Assembly: GCA_026706895.1 (NCBI GenBank)
Contig: JAPOXW010000013.1
Location: forward strand, 1-64,000
Source of the DNA: Gammaproteobacteria bacterium
GTDB lineage: Bacteria; Pseudomonadota; Gammaproteobacteria; Poriferisulfidales; Poriferisulfidaceae
Direction: 5' to 3'
DNA length: 64,000 nucleotides
Shown piece by piece: positions 24,759 through 31,182 of this stretch. Position 1 is the stretch's first letter. Each line of letters opens with the position of its first letter. Position numbers and translations under genes: made by a program. A model generated the notes under the pieces. That model worked only from the letters and a program-made list of their open reading frames with translations. It was not told the origin of the DNA and did not search any database.

Positions 24759-25934
24759 ATGGACGACGACGCGATCAAGGACACTAAAGTCAAGATCCTG
24801 GTCGTTGACGACGAGGTGGATCTGGAGCAACTCATGTTGCAACAGATGCGCAGGGAGATCCGGCGCGGGCGTTACTCTTTTGAATTCGCGCACAACGGTG
24901 CGGAAGCCTTGGAACGCTTGCGCGAAGAGCCCGATTTCGACATCGTGCTGTCCGATATCAACATGCCCGTAATGGACGGGCTGACGATGCTGGAGCAGAT
25001 CCCGGACGTCAACCCCAACATCCGCGCCGTGATGGTTTCCGCCTACGGCGACATGGAAAACATCCGTACCGCGATGAATCGCGGGGCGTTCGACTTCGTA
25101 ACCAAGCCGATCGACTTCGGGGATCTCAAGGTGACGGTGGAGCGCACGGTTGAAAACCTGATGCTGTGGCGCGAGGCGTTAAGTTCGCGCGACAAGCTCG
25201 TCGCGGTCCAGCACGAACTGGGTGTGGCGCAGTCGATGCAGCAGAACATCCTTCCCCAGACTTTTCCGAAGACCGAAAACTTCGACGTCTATGCCCACAT
25301 GGTCGCGGCCCGCTCCGTCGGCGGCGATTTTTATGATGTCTACGACCTTGGCGACGACCGGCTGGGCGTCGTTATCGCCGACGTGTCGGACAAGGGCGTG
25401 CCGGCAGCCATGTTCATGATGGCCAGCCGAACACTGCTGAAAGCCTGTGCGTTTTGCTCCGTTTCCCCCTCCCAGGTTCTGGGACAGGTGAATCAGATGC
25501 TGTCCGAAAACAACGACGCCATGACCTTTGTGACCCTGCTGTACGGCATTTACGACCCCGAGACAAGAAGTTTCACCTACTCGAATGCCGGTCACAACTT
25601 CCCCATCGTCGTCCGCCCGGGGCCCACGGTGGGACTGCTGGAATCGACTGGCGGCATTGCCCTCGGTATCGAGGGAGAATTCCCGTTCCAGGAAGAGACC
25701 ACGACCCTTGAGCCGGGCTCCATGATCGTGCTGTATACCGATGGGGTGTCGGAGGCGGAAAGGGAAGATGGCGAAATGTTCGAGATGGAACGATTCGGCC
25801 AGATTTTCAAAGACAATTCCTACGGGAGCGCCCAGCAAGCCACGGAGGCGGTATTCAATGCCGTTCATGACTTCGTCGGCGACAGCCCGCAGTCCGACGA
25901 CATCACCTGCCTGGTCCTGAAGATTCCGGAATGA
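24759..25934 (+). CDS. Response regulator with PP2C (SpoIIE/RsbU-type) phosphatase output
   Basis: This 391-residue protein has an N-terminal receiver domain (VVDDE, phosphoacceptor Asp66 in VLSDINMPVMDG, switch Lys in FVTKPID). A short coiled linker leads to a PP2C serine phosphatase domain from about residue 180 (RSVGGDFYDV, ADVSDKG, YTDGVSEAE, SDDITCLV). Proteins of this build dephosphorylate STAS anti-sigma antagonists when their receiver is phosphorylated; HsbR in Pseudomonas and RsbU are analogues. GAGGTG lies 4 bases before the ATG. The stop overlaps the RsbW-like gene by 4 bases. Confidence 0.92.
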   Translation: MDDDAIKDTKVKILVVDDEVDLEQLMLQQMRREIRRGRYSFEFAHNGAEALERLREEPDFDIVLSDINMPVMDGLTMLEQIPDVNPNIRAVMVSAYGDMENIRTAMNRGAFDFVTKPIDFGDLKVTVERTVENLMLWREALSSRDKLVAVQHELGVAQSMQQNILPQTFPKTENFDVYAHMVAARSVGGDFYDVYDLGDDRLGVVIADVSDKGVPAAMFMMASRTLLKACAFCSVSPSQVLGQVNQMLSENNDAMTFVTLLYGIYDPETRSFTYSNAGHNFPIVVRPGPTVGLLESTGGIALGIEGEFPFQEETTTLEPGSMIVLYTDGVSEAEREDGEMFEMERFGQIFKDNSYGSAQQATEAVFNAVHDFVGDSPQSDDITCLVLKIPE

Positions 25935-26368
25935 CTGACGCGGTCGAGAAAATGGAATCCTCGCGCACCTTGATTGTTCCCAATCGCATCGAGGAAATCC
26001 GGACGATCGAGAGGTTTTTGGTCGAATTTTCCGAGCAGCACGACTTTCCGCCCGAGACGCTCTTCCAAATCCAACTCTCACTGGAGGAGATGTTCACCAA
26101 TGTCGTCAGCTACGGGTATGACGACGACACGGAACATGAAATCGAGATCGTCCTCTCCAGAAATGGGAAGACCGTGACTGTTGAAATTGCAGATGACGGC
26201 CGCCCTTTCGACCCATTGAAGGATGCGCCGGAAATGGATGCCGAAAGTGCGCTTGCAGAGCGCCGGGTTGGCGGCGCGGGAATCGCACTGACGAAAACCA
26301 TGATGACCGACCTGCGCTATCACCGGGACGATGGCCGGAATCACCTGATCATGGTGAAGGATCTCTAG
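25931..26368 (+). CDS. RsbW-like serine kinase / anti-sigma factor
   Basis: This 145-residue GHKL-type ATPase has the RsbW/SpoIIAB pattern: N box LSLEEMFTNVVSYGY, G1 box ADDGRPFDP and G2 box VGGAGIALTKTM. Such proteins phosphorylate a STAS antagonist on serine and can sequester a partner such as a sigma factor or enzyme. It overlaps the PP2C regulator gene (ATGA) and is separated by 4 bases from the binding-protein gene. No sigma-factor gene is adjacent, so its output partner is unknown. Confidence 0.9.
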   Translation: MTDAVEKMESSRTLIVPNRIEEIRTIERFLVEFSEQHDFPPETLFQIQLSLEEMFTNVVSYGYDDDTEHEIEIVLSRNGKTVTVEIADDGRPFDPLKDAPEMDAESALAERRVGGAGIALTKTMMTDLRYHRDDGRNHLIMVKDL

Positions 26369-26372
26369 CGAC

Positions 26373-27575
26373 GTGCGGACATTGCAGAAGCAGATTCCAA
26401 GAAACATATTCGCGGCTTTTGTGGCGGCGACAATGGCCGGTGCGGCTCTCGGCCAAGACCTCCAAGGATCGTCCGCCACACCCGGAGTGGCCGAGGATCG
26501 CATCCTGTTCGGGCAGTCCGCCGCCTTCGAAGGCCCGGCCCAGGAACTCGGCCGGAGCATGCAGGCCGGCATTCTGGCTGCATTCAAGGAAATCAATGAC
26601 CAAGGGGGCGTCCATGGGCGTCGGCTCGAACTGAGATCCCTGAATGATTCCTATGAACCGGACAAGGCCATCGCCAACACCCGACAGTTGATCGAGGAGG
26701 GCATCTTTGCGCTGATCGGCGCGGTCGGCACCCCGACTTCCAAGGCCGTGGTGCCCGTCACCGAAGAGAATCCCATTCCCTACCTGGCTCCGATGACCGG
26801 CGCGGAATTCCTGCGGGACAACGCGCACCATACCGTCATCAACCTTCGGGCCTCGTACTACCAAGAAACCGAGGAAATGGTCAAGCGATTGACGGTCGAC
26901 CGGAAAATCAAGCGTATTGCCATACTGTACCAAGACGATTCATTTGGCCGCGCCGGCTTGCGGGGGGTTCTTCGCGCCCTTGAGAAACGCAAGCTTTTTG
27001 CCATCGGCACAGGAGTGTTTTCCCGAAACACCGTTGCAATCAAGACAGCGCTTCTGGATTTGAAAGCGGTCGAGCCAGAAGCCGTCATCATCATTGGCCC
27101 GTACCAGCCCACTGCGACGTTCATCAAATGGGCGCACCGCCTCGGCATGGAGTCTGCGGTTTTCATGACGCTTTCCTTTGTCGGCAGCAACGCCCTGGCG
27201 AAGGAGTTAGGCACCGAAGGGGACGGAGTCGTCGTCACGCAAGTCGTTCCCTTCCCGACAGGCGACACAGTGCCGGTTTCCGCGTCATACCGCGCCGCAC
27301 TGAAAGCCTACGATCCCTCGATCACCCCCGGATTCATCTCGTTCGAGGGCTACCTGGCAGGCCACCTCGCCATTTATGCCCTGCAACAATGCGGTGAAAA
27401 GGTCGACCGGAACTGTATTCATTCCGCGCTACGGAGCGGCAGCGACATTGACCTGGACGGATTCATCCTGCGGTTCGGCAAGTACGACAACCAGGGTTCG
27501 GACCGTGTATTCCTGACGGCTATCGGCCCGGATGGCCAATACATGCCGCTTACCACTTTGCCCTCTCGGGAATAG
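26373..27575 (+). CDS. Periplasmic ligand-binding protein (LivK-type)
   Basis: This 400-residue protein starts at GTG (26373), has a signal peptide ending AGAALGQ, and has a type 1 periplasmic-binding fold like branched-chain amino-acid or urea receptors. Typical stretches are ILFGQSAAFEGPAQELG, RSMQAGILAAFKEINDQGGV and LRSLNDSYEPDKAIANTRQL. No ABC permease or ATPase genes are present. It sits between the RsbW-like kinase gene and a membrane histidine kinase gene 2 bases downstream. It therefore probably senses a ligand for the kinase rather than feeding a transporter. The ligand is unknown. Confidence 0.88.
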   Translation: MRTLQKQIPRNIFAAFVAATMAGAALGQDLQGSSATPGVAEDRILFGQSAAFEGPAQELGRSMQAGILAAFKEINDQGGVHGRRLELRSLNDSYEPDKAIANTRQLIEEGIFALIGAVGTPTSKAVVPVTEENPIPYLAPMTGAEFLRDNAHHTVINLRASYYQETEEMVKRLTVDRKIKRIAILYQDDSFGRAGLRGVLRALEKRKLFAIGTGVFSRNTVAIKTALLDLKAVEPEAVIIIGPYQPTATFIKWAHRLGMESAVFMTLSFVGSNALAKELGTEGDGVVVTQVVPFPTGDTVPVSASYRAALKAYDPSITPGFISFEGYLAGHLAIYALQQCGEKVDRNCIHSALRSGSDIDLDGFILRFGKYDNQGSDRVFLTAIGPDGQYMPLTTLPSRE

Positions 27576-27577
27576 CG

Positions 27578-29812
27578 ATGAAATTACCTGTGTCCAGCGG
27601 ATTTTCCAAAATCTGGAACCAGATCTCGACCCAGCTCCATACTAGTTTTGGAGGTGCCGTCGTGCTGATCGTTGCCATCAGCCTTCTCACCATATTCGTG
27701 CTCGATCATATCAAGACCATTCAGTACAGCATCAGCGAAAAAAGCATGCCGGACATGCAGGCAGCATTCTCCGTCGCGCAACAAACATCCACGCTCGTCG
27801 CGGCCGCCCCCCAACTTGCGACCGCAGCGACGCTAGAGCAATTCGAAGAAATCGTCGTATCGGTAGGCATGCAGGAAAGGGCTTTCGAGACCCAACTGTC
27901 GGTCATGCTGGATAGGCAGGCAGGCAACGAGCATACACAGCGAATCCAAGAAGACGGAGAGGGCATCATTCGGGCCATCGATCGCATTAAAGTGCTGGTT
28001 CAGGAGCACTTCGATCTCCGCCAGCGCAGTGGCCTCCTCAAGGATGAACTTCGTGAGGTCCATGACAAATTGATGGCGGTTTTGATTAGCGAAATCGACA
28101 ACCAGATGTTTTATACGATCACGGGCTACTGGTCGCTTGACAGTGCGCAATCGCCACGCCCGGATCATTTCTCCGAAGAAGAATTCCTGACTTACCGCCG
28201 TCTGGTCGAACTTCGCGAAGCTGCAACGGTAACCACCCAATTGCTCGCAACCGCATTTACAGTCAGGGACGCTGCACTGTTGCAGCCGTTGCGGGAAGAA
28301 TTCGAAGCGACGACCGGACTTGCCAGTCGATCCCTCGAATACCTCGAAGACCGTCCGATACATGAAGATTTGTCCCGTGCCTTCTCGGACCTGTTTTCAA
28401 TCGGCCGCCGGCAAGACAGCGGTTTCGATCTCCACGGTCGAGAACTCGCTGTCGAGGCGGAAATGACCTTCCTGCTCCAAAACAGTCAAGTCTTGGGAGC
28501 GGAGATTGTGGCGTTGGTGGAGGAGATTGTTAGCCAATACAGTCTGACTGCGCTGCAAATGGCAGCGGAAGCCACCGAGATCACCAAGACGAGCTCGACG
28601 CTGTTGCTCATCATCAACATTATCAGCATCACGGGTGCGGTTCTGATTGGATGGCTCTTCGTGGAACGGCGCCTGATCCGGCGCTTGGGCATTGTTTCCC
28701 AGCAAATACAGCGCATCGCCGGCGGCAACCTGGAAATTCCCATCGAAGTGTCCGGCAATGATGAGATTGGAGAATTGGCCAAGGCGCTTGAAGTGTTCCG
28801 GCAAAATGCGCTGGAAGTGCAACGCCTCAGCCTCGTCGAACAACTTGCCGACGAACTGAAAGAAATGTACCAGGATTTGGAGAAAGCGAACGAAAAACTG
28901 AAGAGTGCGCAAGGTCAGATCGTGATGCAGGAAAAACTTGCCGCCCTCGGCCAGCTGACGGCGGGAGTCGCACACGAGATCAAGAACCCCATGAATTTCA
29001 TCATGAACTTCGCCCAGGTCTCGAAAGACCTGCTGGAAGAACTGTTGGAAGAAGTGGCCAAAACCAAGCCGGGCGCAGAAGTCGAAGAAGAATATGATCC
29101 GGAGCTGGTCGATGAAATCGCCGAAGACCTGACTGGGAATCTGGAGCGCATCCACGAGCATGGTACTCGCGCCAATCGGATCGTGATGGACATGCTCAAG
29201 ATGGGCCGGCACGACTCTGGAGACTGGCAGCCGGCCGATATGGGCGTACTGCTGAACCAGCATGCCATGCTCGCGTTCCACAGTGCCCGTGCCACTGATC
29301 CTGACTTCCAGCTCGACATTCAGGAGGATTACGTGCCGGATGTCGACAAGATCATGGTGAAACCTCAGGATCTTGGCCGGGTATTCCTAAACCTGGTAAC
29401 CAATGCGTGCTACGCAACGGACGAGAAGAGGAAAGCCTTGATGGCAGAGAGTGGCAATGGCACGACAACGTATCAGCCAACACTCAACTTAAGCACACAG
29501 TTGGCGGGAGAATTTCTTGAAGTGCATGTCCGCGACAATGGAAATGGCATTCCCGAATCCGCTTTGAAACAGATCTTCAACCCATTCTTCACGACGAAAC
29601 CACCCGACAAGGGTACGGGTCTGGGACTGTCACTGTCCAGCGACATTGTCCGAGAACACGGCGGCGAATTCCGCGTGGATACGAAAGAGGGCGAATACAC
29701 CGACATGATCGTCTCCCTGCCGCTCAAGACTCCAGAAGAGCTGATGGCAACTCCGGAGGAAGAGGGTGCGCCGGAAGACCCGGCCGACACTCAAGATGAA
29801 GACGCCGCTTAG
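27578..29812 (+). CDS. Membrane sensor histidine kinase
   Basis: This 744-residue kinase has one membrane helix at about 25-44, a large periplasmic helical domain, and a second helix near 342-363 (LLLIINIISITGAVLIGWLF). A HAMP domain, a coiled coil, the H box AHEIKNPMNFI (His466) and an ATPase domain follow, with N box VFLNLVTNACYAT, RDNGNGIP and GTGLGLSLS. The C-terminus is acidic. It probably receives its signal from the binding protein encoded just upstream and phosphorylates the REC-PP2C protein of the same operon. That pairing is inferred from position. Confidence 0.92.
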   Translation: MKLPVSSGFSKIWNQISTQLHTSFGGAVVLIVAISLLTIFVLDHIKTIQYSISEKSMPDMQAAFSVAQQTSTLVAAAPQLATAATLEQFEEIVVSVGMQERAFETQLSVMLDRQAGNEHTQRIQEDGEGIIRAIDRIKVLVQEHFDLRQRSGLLKDELREVHDKLMAVLISEIDNQMFYTITGYWSLDSAQSPRPDHFSEEEFLTYRRLVELREAATVTTQLLATAFTVRDAALLQPLREEFEATTGLASRSLEYLEDRPIHEDLSRAFSDLFSIGRRQDSGFDLHGRELAVEAEMTFLLQNSQVLGAEIVALVEEIVSQYSLTALQMAAEATEITKTSSTLLLIINIISITGAVLIGWLFVERRLIRRLGIVSQQIQRIAGGNLEIPIEVSGNDEIGELAKALEVFRQNALEVQRLSLVEQLADELKEMYQDLEKANEKLKSAQGQIVMQEKLAALGQLTAGVAHEIKNPMNFIMNFAQVSKDLLEELLEEVAKTKPGAEVEEEYDPELVDEIAEDLTGNLERIHEHGTRANRIVMDMLKMGRHDSGDWQPADMGVLLNQHAMLAFHSARATDPDFQLDIQEDYVPDVDKIMVKPQDLGRVFLNLVTNACYATDEKRKALMAESGNGTTTYQPTLNLSTQLAGEFLEVHVRDNGNGIPESALKQIFNPFFTTKPPDKGTGLGLSLSSDIVREHGGEFRVDTKEGEYTDMIVSLPLKTPEELMATPEEEGAPEDPADTQDEDAA

Positions 29813-29822
29813 GAAGGCGTCT
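29800..29822. terminator. Hairpin shared by convergent kinase and STAS genes
   Basis: A 7-bp stem AGACGCC/GGCGTCT with a 9-base loop spans the stop codons of both convergent genes. It could act in both directions, but neither side has a clear T tract. Confidence 0.4.
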
Positions 29823-30177
29823 AACCGGTCACTGCAGAGACCGCCTCCGAAGGGGACCCGTAGACATCAATAACTTTGTCAAAGCCCGCAGTCTTGACCA
29901 TAGAACCGACGGTTTCCGACAAAGAACATATCGCGAATTTCCTGCCCTTGGCGTGGAGTATCTTCGCAGTCACCAGAATTACACGCAATCCGGCGCTGCT
30001 GACATAAGTCAAGGCTGCCAGATCCAGGATGACGGCACCGCCCCCGTAAGCCCCGACTCTTTCATTAAGCCCGGCTTGGAACTCTTCTGCATTCAGGCCG
30101 TCAATATGACCCGCCACATCCACCATGAGTGCGCTTTCAGTCTCGCGAACCTGAAATCCGAACTGATGATCAGAAAT
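29821..30177 (-). CDS. STAS-domain anti-sigma antagonist 1, probable ATT start
   Basis: This 118-residue single STAS domain has the RsbV-type phosphorylation site in LTYVSSAGLRVIL. The only ATG (30126) would remove the first strand. Upstream, the frame reads ISDHQFGFQVRE, aligning with ISDHQFELQTEE of STAS 3 and with the ATG-started STAS 2. The start is therefore placed at ATT 30177-30175, with AGGGAG 7 bases upstream. A TGCTATGAT extended -10 at 30208-30213 would start the RNA near 30201, and no ATG, GTG or TTG lies between that point and the ATT. It is probably the target of the RsbW-like kinase and PP2C phosphatase encoded opposite. Confidence 0.85.
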   Translation of the reverse strand: MSDHQFGFQVRETESALMVDVAGHIDGLNAEEFQAGLNERVGAYGGGAVILDLAALTYVSSAGLRVILVTAKILHAKGRKFAICSLSETVGSMVKTAGFDKVIDVYGSPSEAVSAVTG

Positions 30178-30207
30178 GGTCCTTCTCCCTAAAATAACTT
30201 GTTCCGC

Positions 30208-30213
30208 ATCATA
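30208..30213 (-). promoter_or_regulatory. Extended -10 promoter of STAS gene 1
   Basis: On the minus strand this reads TATGAT preceded by TGC, an extended -10. The predicted RNA start is near 30201, about 24 bases before the proposed ATT start codon. Confidence 0.45.
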
Positions 30214-30282
30214 GCACAGGGCAACCGCGGAGACGGAAGAGGTTGCGGGCTAAGCGCGGAATGAGAATTTTCGGCACGACGA

Positions 30283-30645
30283 TCACCGCGTCACTGCTTC
30301 AATAGCCGAGGAACGGGACATGTAGACATCGATAATATTGTCAAAACCCGTCGTCTGGATGATTTCCAAGATCGCACTTGGCAAAGAGCAGAGCGCCAGT
30401 TTTCTGCTCCGACGATTCATCGCTTCGGCAACCAGCAGGATCACGCGTAGTCCTGCACTACTGATGTAGGACAGGCTCTCAAAATCCAGGATGATGGCAG
30501 GACCGTCGTAACTCCGCGTTGCTTGCTCCAGGCCGCTTCGAAACTCCCGCGTATTCATGCCGTCCACCCGACCCGTGACATTGATTACGAGCGTATTCTC
30601 AAACTCTTCGGTCTGCAAATCGAATTGGGACCCTGAATCTGTCAT
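30283..30645 (-). CDS. STAS-domain anti-sigma antagonist 2
   Basis: This 120-residue STAS domain protein has the motif LSYISSAGLRVILLV, containing the conserved phosphorylatable serine. It starts with a normal ATG and reads MTDSGSQFDLQTEEFENTL, which anchors the N-terminal alignment of its two neighbours. It is the middle of three tandem paralogues on the minus strand, convergent with the histidine-kinase operon. It probably acts in the same partner switch. Whether the three copies bind the same kinase is not known. Confidence 0.9.
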   Translation of the reverse strand: MTDSGSQFDLQTEEFENTLVINVTGRVDGMNTREFRSGLEQATRSYDGPAIILDFESLSYISSAGLRVILLVAEAMNRRSRKLALCSLPSAILEIIQTTGFDNIIDVYMSRSSAIEAVTR

Positions 30646-30732
30646 GTTTCAGTGCGGAGTGGTTTCATAAGCATACCTGAAACCTCCGTCCAGCCCCAGC
30701 GACCGGTCAGCAAGCAAGATTCCTGGGCTTAT

Positions 30733-31092
30733 TCAACCGGTCGTCGCCGTGACCGCCACGGAGCGAGATTCGTGTATGTCGATAATCTTGTCGAAGCCGG
30801 TAATCTGAATGATCTCCATAATGGGATCGGGCAACGCACACATGGCAAATTTTATTTGTTTGCTCTTGAGTGTCTTGGCGATGAGCAAAATCGAGCGCAA
30901 CCCGGCACTACTGATGTAGGACAGGTTTTCAAGATCCAAAACAATGGCTTGACTGTCGCTAGAACTCTCGGCCTTTTGATCCAGATTTTCCTGAAACTCT
31001 TGTGCGTTTACGCCGTCGATGCGGCCCGCCACGCTGATTACAAGTGCTCCTTGGAGTTCTTCAGTCTGTAGCTCAAACTGGTGGTCGGAAAT
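30733..31092 (-). CDS. STAS-domain anti-sigma antagonist 3, probable ATT start
   Basis: This 119-residue STAS domain has LSYISSAGLRSILLI with the phosphorylation serine. In-frame sequence extends to an ATG at 31182, but a TTGGCA-16-TATAAT promoter (31121-31148, minus strand) would start RNA near 31114, inside that extension. Downstream of that point the only start-like codon with a ribosome-binding site is ATT at 31092-31090, with GGGAG 6 bases upstream. This gives ISDHQFELQTEEL, aligned with the starts of both paralogues. The upstream 30 residues (hydrophobic, IAPIPFW) are not conserved and are probably not translated. Confidence 0.85.
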   Translation of the reverse strand: MSDHQFELQTEELQGALVISVAGRIDGVNAQEFQENLDQKAESSSDSQAIVLDLENLSYISSAGLRSILLIAKTLKSKQIKFAMCALPDPIMEIIQITGFDKIIDIHESRSVAVTATTG

Positions 31093-31120
31093 GGTTGGCT
31101 CCCAAAATGGTATGGGCGCT

Positions 31121-31148
31121 ATTATAACAATTGCACACGGTTTGCCAA
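31121..31148 (-). promoter_or_regulatory. Sigma70 promoter of STAS gene 3
   Basis: On the minus strand, TTGGCA (31148-31143) and TATAAT (31126-31121) are spaced by 16 bases. The predicted start is near 31114, about 22 bases before the ATT codon. Confidence 0.6.
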
Positions 31149-31182
31149 ACGAAAATTCAAGGAGGGAATTCCACAATTCCAA

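Follow-up and report, generated by a model that had tools for sequence, protein, structure and literature searches.

Putative conserved ATT start codons in two of three tandem STAS genes of a gammaproteobacterial partner switch

We describe a tandem array of three STAS genes in the genus Candidatus Porisulfidus, two of which (genes 1 and 3) in all probability begin at AUU, their weak initiation being kept by selection, likely for reasons of stoichiometry. Comparison of orthologues strongly supports both the assignment of the start sites and their conservation: ATT occupies the putative first codon in every congeneric copy of the two genes, and the same alignment position holds ATT or TTG in other Gammaproteobacteria and ATG in a distant relative. 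The central claim of a first-pass annotation of this DNA, that genes 1 and 3 start at ATT, thus stands.

The partner-switch locus and its STAS genes

The window analyzed here, a stretch of 64,000 nucleotides, is contig C30 of a 1.69 Mb genome (G000) of Candidatus Porisulfidus, a genus whose genomes we infer to be of sponge origin and on which a search of the literature returned nothing useful. Its minus strand carries the three STAS genes in tandem between 29821 and 31092 (Table 1). Profile searches identify one STAS domain (PF01740) in each gene, with the conserved serine motif SSAGLR invariant in the alignment, and only one further STAS domain was found in the genome, within a 622-codon frame elsewhere. 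The trio is present in five of the six genomes of the genus that were examined (G000, G001, G003, G004 and G005, referred to below as the congeners, the window genome included). G003 additionally holds a fourth, stand-alone STAS gene headed by ATG (L021, G003:C16:2690-2992; L042 in the tree) on a 4.8 kb contig; it clusters with distant bacteria and was possibly acquired, or the contig may be a contaminant. In G004 (L017), the contig breaks off shortly before the start of gene 3, and the poly-C runs at that end are probably an assembly artefact.

Membership of the STAS genes in a partner switch, as suggested by the first-pass annotation, is borne out by the anatomy of the locus. The plus strand encodes a response regulator-SpoIIE phosphatase, whose SpoIIE domain was the sole one detected genome-wide, and an RsbW-like kinase whose ATG overlaps the phosphatase stop codon (ATGA) and which outscores all other HATPase_c_2 matches in the genome by a wide margin. 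Between this kinase and the STAS genes lie genes for a periplasmic binding protein and a TorS-like sensor kinase (26373-29812), which possibly constitute the signal input of the switch. A HATPase_c_2 kinase and a SpoIIE phosphatase are also found near the STAS genes in G005, G020, G037 and G038. The surroundings of the switch yielded no sigma gene; partner switches of some Gammaproteobacteria act on outputs other than a sigma factor.

Table 1. Features of the partner-switch locus, in window coordinates
Feature	Coordinates	Strand	Evidence
Response regulator-SpoIIE phosphatase, 391 aa, ATG start	24759..25934	+	PF00072 and PF07228
RsbW-like kinase (HATPase_c_2), 145 aa, ATG start	25931..26368	+	PF13581, 102.3 bits
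Periplasmic binding protein	26373..27575	+	PF13458
Sensor histidine kinase (TorS-like sensor, HAMP, HisKA, HATPase)	27578..29812	+	Domain search
STAS gene 1, 118 aa, putative ATT start at 30177-30175	29821..30177	-	PF01740, 63.7 bits; orthologues; dN/dS; AlphaFold model
Shine-Dalgarno AGGGAG, 7 nt ahead of gene 1 ATT	30185..30190	-	Sequence; AGGAG at 7 nt in G005
Extended -10 promoter-like element TGCTATGAT, gene 1	30208..30216	-	Consensus match; TATGAT/TATGAC in 5/5 congeners
STAS gene 2, 120 aa, ATG start	30283..30645	-	Sequence; orthologue alignment
STAS gene 3, 119 aa, putative ATT start at 31092-31090	30733..31092	-	PF01740, 75.8 bits; orthologues; dN/dS
Shine-Dalgarno GGGAG, 6 nt ahead of gene 3 ATT	31099..31103	-	Sequence; duplex energies
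Promoter-like TTGGCA-16-TATAAT, gene 3	31121..31148	-	Consensus match; TATAAT in 5/5 congeners

Start codons of genes 1 and 3 and their conservation

The immediate context of the two ATT codons is as originally described, with a Shine-Dalgarno sequence ahead of each and TCY GAY CAY CAG TTY behind it, giving ISDHQF in both proteins. The promoter-like elements reported with them are likewise present as consensus matches, and their -10 elements recur in the congeners. For gene 3 the parts are TTGGCA at 31148-31143, a spacer of 16 nt and TATAAT at 31126-31121. From these elements RNA would be expected to start near 30201 for gene 1 and near 31114 for gene 3. The accompanying statement that no ATG, GTG or TTG intervenes between RNA start and ATT holds in frame but fails out of frame for gene 3, where a TTG lies at 31105-31103.

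Alignment of orthologues had been set beforehand as a refuting test, and it left the proposed starts standing, with ATT kept and the downstream ATG not. ATT is found at the identical codon in ten of ten congeneric copies of genes 1 and 3 from the five genomes. Eight of these copies (gene 1 in G000, G001, G003 and G005; gene 3 in G001, G003, G004 and G005) are free of ATG, GTG and TTG from the upstream in-frame stop to the ATT, and in seven of the ten an uninterrupted frame of this kind is closed by a stop 8-11 codons upstream. A GGAG-type Shine-Dalgarno lies 6-8 nt upstream, within the genus mostly 6-7 nt, in every ATT gene except gene 1 of G003, whose poor sequence (GAGTGG) counts against the explanation we favor. 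Across the 12 ATT-headed genes, only 3 of the 42 columns that are invariant in amino acid are also invariant in codon, the ATT among them, which speaks against coincidence. Both genes are under purifying selection, with dN/dS of 0.10-0.25 for gene 1 and 0-0.045 for gene 3.

The codon is also retained beyond the genus. In a second gammaproteobacterial lineage (about 60% identical proteins) the aligned codon is ATT in two genomes (G020 and G021) and TTG in two others from the same order (G037 and G038); the copies with ATT, from two metagenome-assembled genomes (L032, L033), are 58-61% identical. The second STAS gene of that lineage has ATT in G037 and G038, 7-8 bases after GGAG, and probably starts at GTG in G020, G021 and G036. 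In the distant relative G002 the aligned codon is ATG. That ATT, TTG and ATG replace one another at one aligned codon is as expected of a start codon rather than an internal isoleucine. A class-level sample of 368 genomes contained no further close relative. Each STAS gene is grouped by orthology in the tree, which does not fix the deep order of the groups, so that ATT may be ancestral to both lineages or may have arisen repeatedly. At the G002 locus (L010, G002:C185), a single STAS gene starting with ATG precedes, on the same strand, a frame of 550 codons that carries both SpoIIE and HATPase_c_2 domains, so that the switch appears to be fused.

Gene 2 provides an internal control. The first-pass annotation had aligned its ATG with the ATT of the neighboring genes, but it sits two codons further 5' (MAISETQF or MTDSGSQF versus ISDHQF), which leaves the ATT-homologous codon inside the gene. 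There it reads ATT in G003 and G005 and GAT in G000, G001 and G004; since the homologous codon varies where it is internal, ATT appears to be kept only where it is the first codon. In a reversal of the pattern of genes 1 and 3, no clear Shine-Dalgarno was recognized for gene 2 in any of the five genomes.

To place these starts in a wider context, 450 orthologue pairs from sampled stretches of G000 and G001 versus G005, some genes being counted twice, were scanned for a shared near-cognate codon close to the start of conservation, with a Shine-Dalgarno in both genomes and no close shared canonical start. This stricter filter superseded an earlier version of the scan, which had returned 124 candidates, many of them apparently due to overlap with the upstream gene. 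It returned genes 1 and 3 and two open reading frames judged spurious, one with DNA resembling a tRNA T-arm (GGGATTCGAACC) and one short and without sign of being a gene. Relaxed start selection across the genus was rejected, there being no other convincing case among the 450 pairs; of the 136 pairs that have a canonical start in common, with a Shine-Dalgarno, 89 use ATG, 21 GTG and 14 TTG, and 12 are mixed. An altered initiator tRNA was also discarded, as the single close match per genome has a normal CAU anticodon. The scan filter missed infC, because an in-frame TTG lies two codons upstream of its start. This TTG is too close to the GGAGG to serve, and infC begins in the genus as GGAGG-N7-ATC AGC and in G020 and G021 with ATT. 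Near-cognate infC starts thus persist in these symbionts.

Probable weak initiation and competing readings

Genes 1 and 3 would be transcribed from their own promoters with short leaders of about 22-24 nt, and the ordinary initiator tRNA, assisted by the Shine-Dalgarno, would read AUU as fMet. The AUU starts of infC and pcnB in Escherichia coli are associated with low translation and IF3 discrimination (PMC9410913, which cites the original work, for pcnB that of Binns and Masters 2002). By analogy, the AUU starts described here may be low-yielding and IF3-sensitive; as poor starts discriminated against by IF3, they would give little protein per message, and selection for weak initiation would maintain the ATT codon. 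We propose that the purpose of the weak STAS starts is stoichiometric: with three STAS proteins to a single RsbW-like kinase and a single SpoIIE phosphatase, an excess of STAS protein would titrate the kinase and turn the switch permanently on. The ATG of gene 2 counts against this explanation, in that a weak codon is not common to the whole trio; an ATG without a clear Shine-Dalgarno nevertheless fits the idea that all three STAS genes are tuned down, by different means.

Near-cognate starts could also serve active control, as the first-pass annotation supposed in tying translation to initiation-factor level, with STAS synthesis rising when free IF3 or the state of the ribosomes shifts, for instance at low growth rate. 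We regard this reading as unlikely. It draws on the discrimination of IF3 against AUU in E. coli (PMC9410913, citing the original work), on the repression of sigR by IF3 in Streptomyces, where a GTC start lowers translation (PMC5472188), on the ATC start of infC in the genus, and on the predominance of weak start codons (ATT, TTG, GTG) over the lineages with this gene set. However, TTG is a canonical start, and its presence in G037 and G038 indicates that an IF3-specific sensitivity is not strictly conserved; the replacement of ATT by TTG in these two genomes favors a weak start over an IF3 sensor. Moreover, the AUU site of Staphylococcus aureus cvfC1 operates without medium dependence (PMC13009471), and stress-dependent derepression could not be shown by the authors of the sigR study (PMC5472188). 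We likewise give little credence to a scenario in which the twin AUU starts predate the split of the two gammaproteobacterial lineages and STAS levels co-vary with IF3 and ribosome state; were it true, the switch would sense translational capacity.

It is very improbable that translation starts instead where a gene caller restricted to ATG, GTG and TTG would place it, at ATG 30126 in gene 1 and TTG 31182 in gene 3. These are the first canonical codons of both frames in the window genome: gene 1 has no ATG, GTG or TTG from its upstream in-frame stop (30252, 25 codons before the ATT) to 30126, and a product truncated to this ATG retains its STAS profile match. Yet ATG 30126 is ATA in G003, where ATT is the sole near-cognate codon from the stop to the gene 1 protein. 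When the gene 1 protein is modeled with AlphaFold from its ATT onward (mean pLDDT 90.2), strand 1 spans residues 6-12 and strand 2 residues 17-25, and initiation at 30126 would begin the protein at residue 18 and is predicted to remove strand 1. As for gene 3, the codon at 31182, misread as ATG in the first-pass annotation, lies upstream of the putative -35; a second in-frame TTG in the window genome, at 31176, is like the first upstream of the putative -10, and four of the five congeners close the frame with a TAG 10 codons upstream of the ATT. Downstream ATG and GTG starts were hence rejected as not conserved and as cutting strand 1, and TTG 31182 was rejected together with upstream CTG, ATA and ATC candidates, no other near-cognate position being common to all orthologues. 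Gene 1 of G004 has a GTG 17 codons 5' of the ATT, upstream of the putative -10.

Least credible of all is a neutral relic, that is, decaying genes with an accidental start loss or a sequencing error, which the small, symbiont-like genomes (1.6-1.9 Mb in the more complete members) might invite but which is at odds with dN/dS of 0-0.25 in genes 1 and 3 and with the recurrence of the codon in a second lineage and in five separate genome assemblies, of which one consists of a single contig.

Related systems and implications

To our knowledge, few bacterial genes begin with AUU. The partner switch itself resembles HsbR-HsbA of Pseudomonas and SypE-SypA of Vibrio fischeri in combining a response regulator, a SpoIIE-type phosphatase, a HATPase_c_2-type kinase and STAS. 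In those systems phosphatase and kinase are joined in one multi-domain protein, whereas here they are encoded by separate genes, with three tandem STAS genes on the opposite strand. With infC of E. coli and other bacteria, genes 1 and 3 share a conserved near-cognate start, AUU or AUC, that follows a Shine-Dalgarno and that IF3 disfavors in infC, and infC itself carries ATC here; infC, however, is autoregulatory, while the STAS genes encode no initiation factor. AUU also limits translation in pcnB (PMC9410913) and in cvfC1 of staphylococci, where it is conserved, with a strong Shine-Dalgarno, and lowers translation (PMC13009471), but both are unrelated genes outside any partner switch.

Two systems bear on sigma control. 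In sigR, a sigma-control protein is kept low by a non-canonical start, with its partner in excess, and the start is conserved genus-wide (PMC5472188); there, the codon is GTC in a sigma factor with a redox anti-sigma, while here it would be AUU in STAS genes set against a kinase, twice per array. In Listeria, replacing the rsbW start by ATA or ATT lowers translation, in the order ATG > ATA > ATT, and upsets the SigB switch through stoichiometry (PMC13068326); those are laboratory-selected mutations of the kinase gene, as opposed to a conserved state of the STAS genes.

Gene finders that admit only ATG, GTG and TTG overlook or misplace AUU starts, in this locus truncating gene 1 and making gene 3 overlong. 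The conservation of ATT suggests that slow synthesis of these two STAS regulators is by design, and a conserved AUU in paired regulators would tie start-codon strength to the stoichiometry of the switch, as do sigR and the rsbW mutants.
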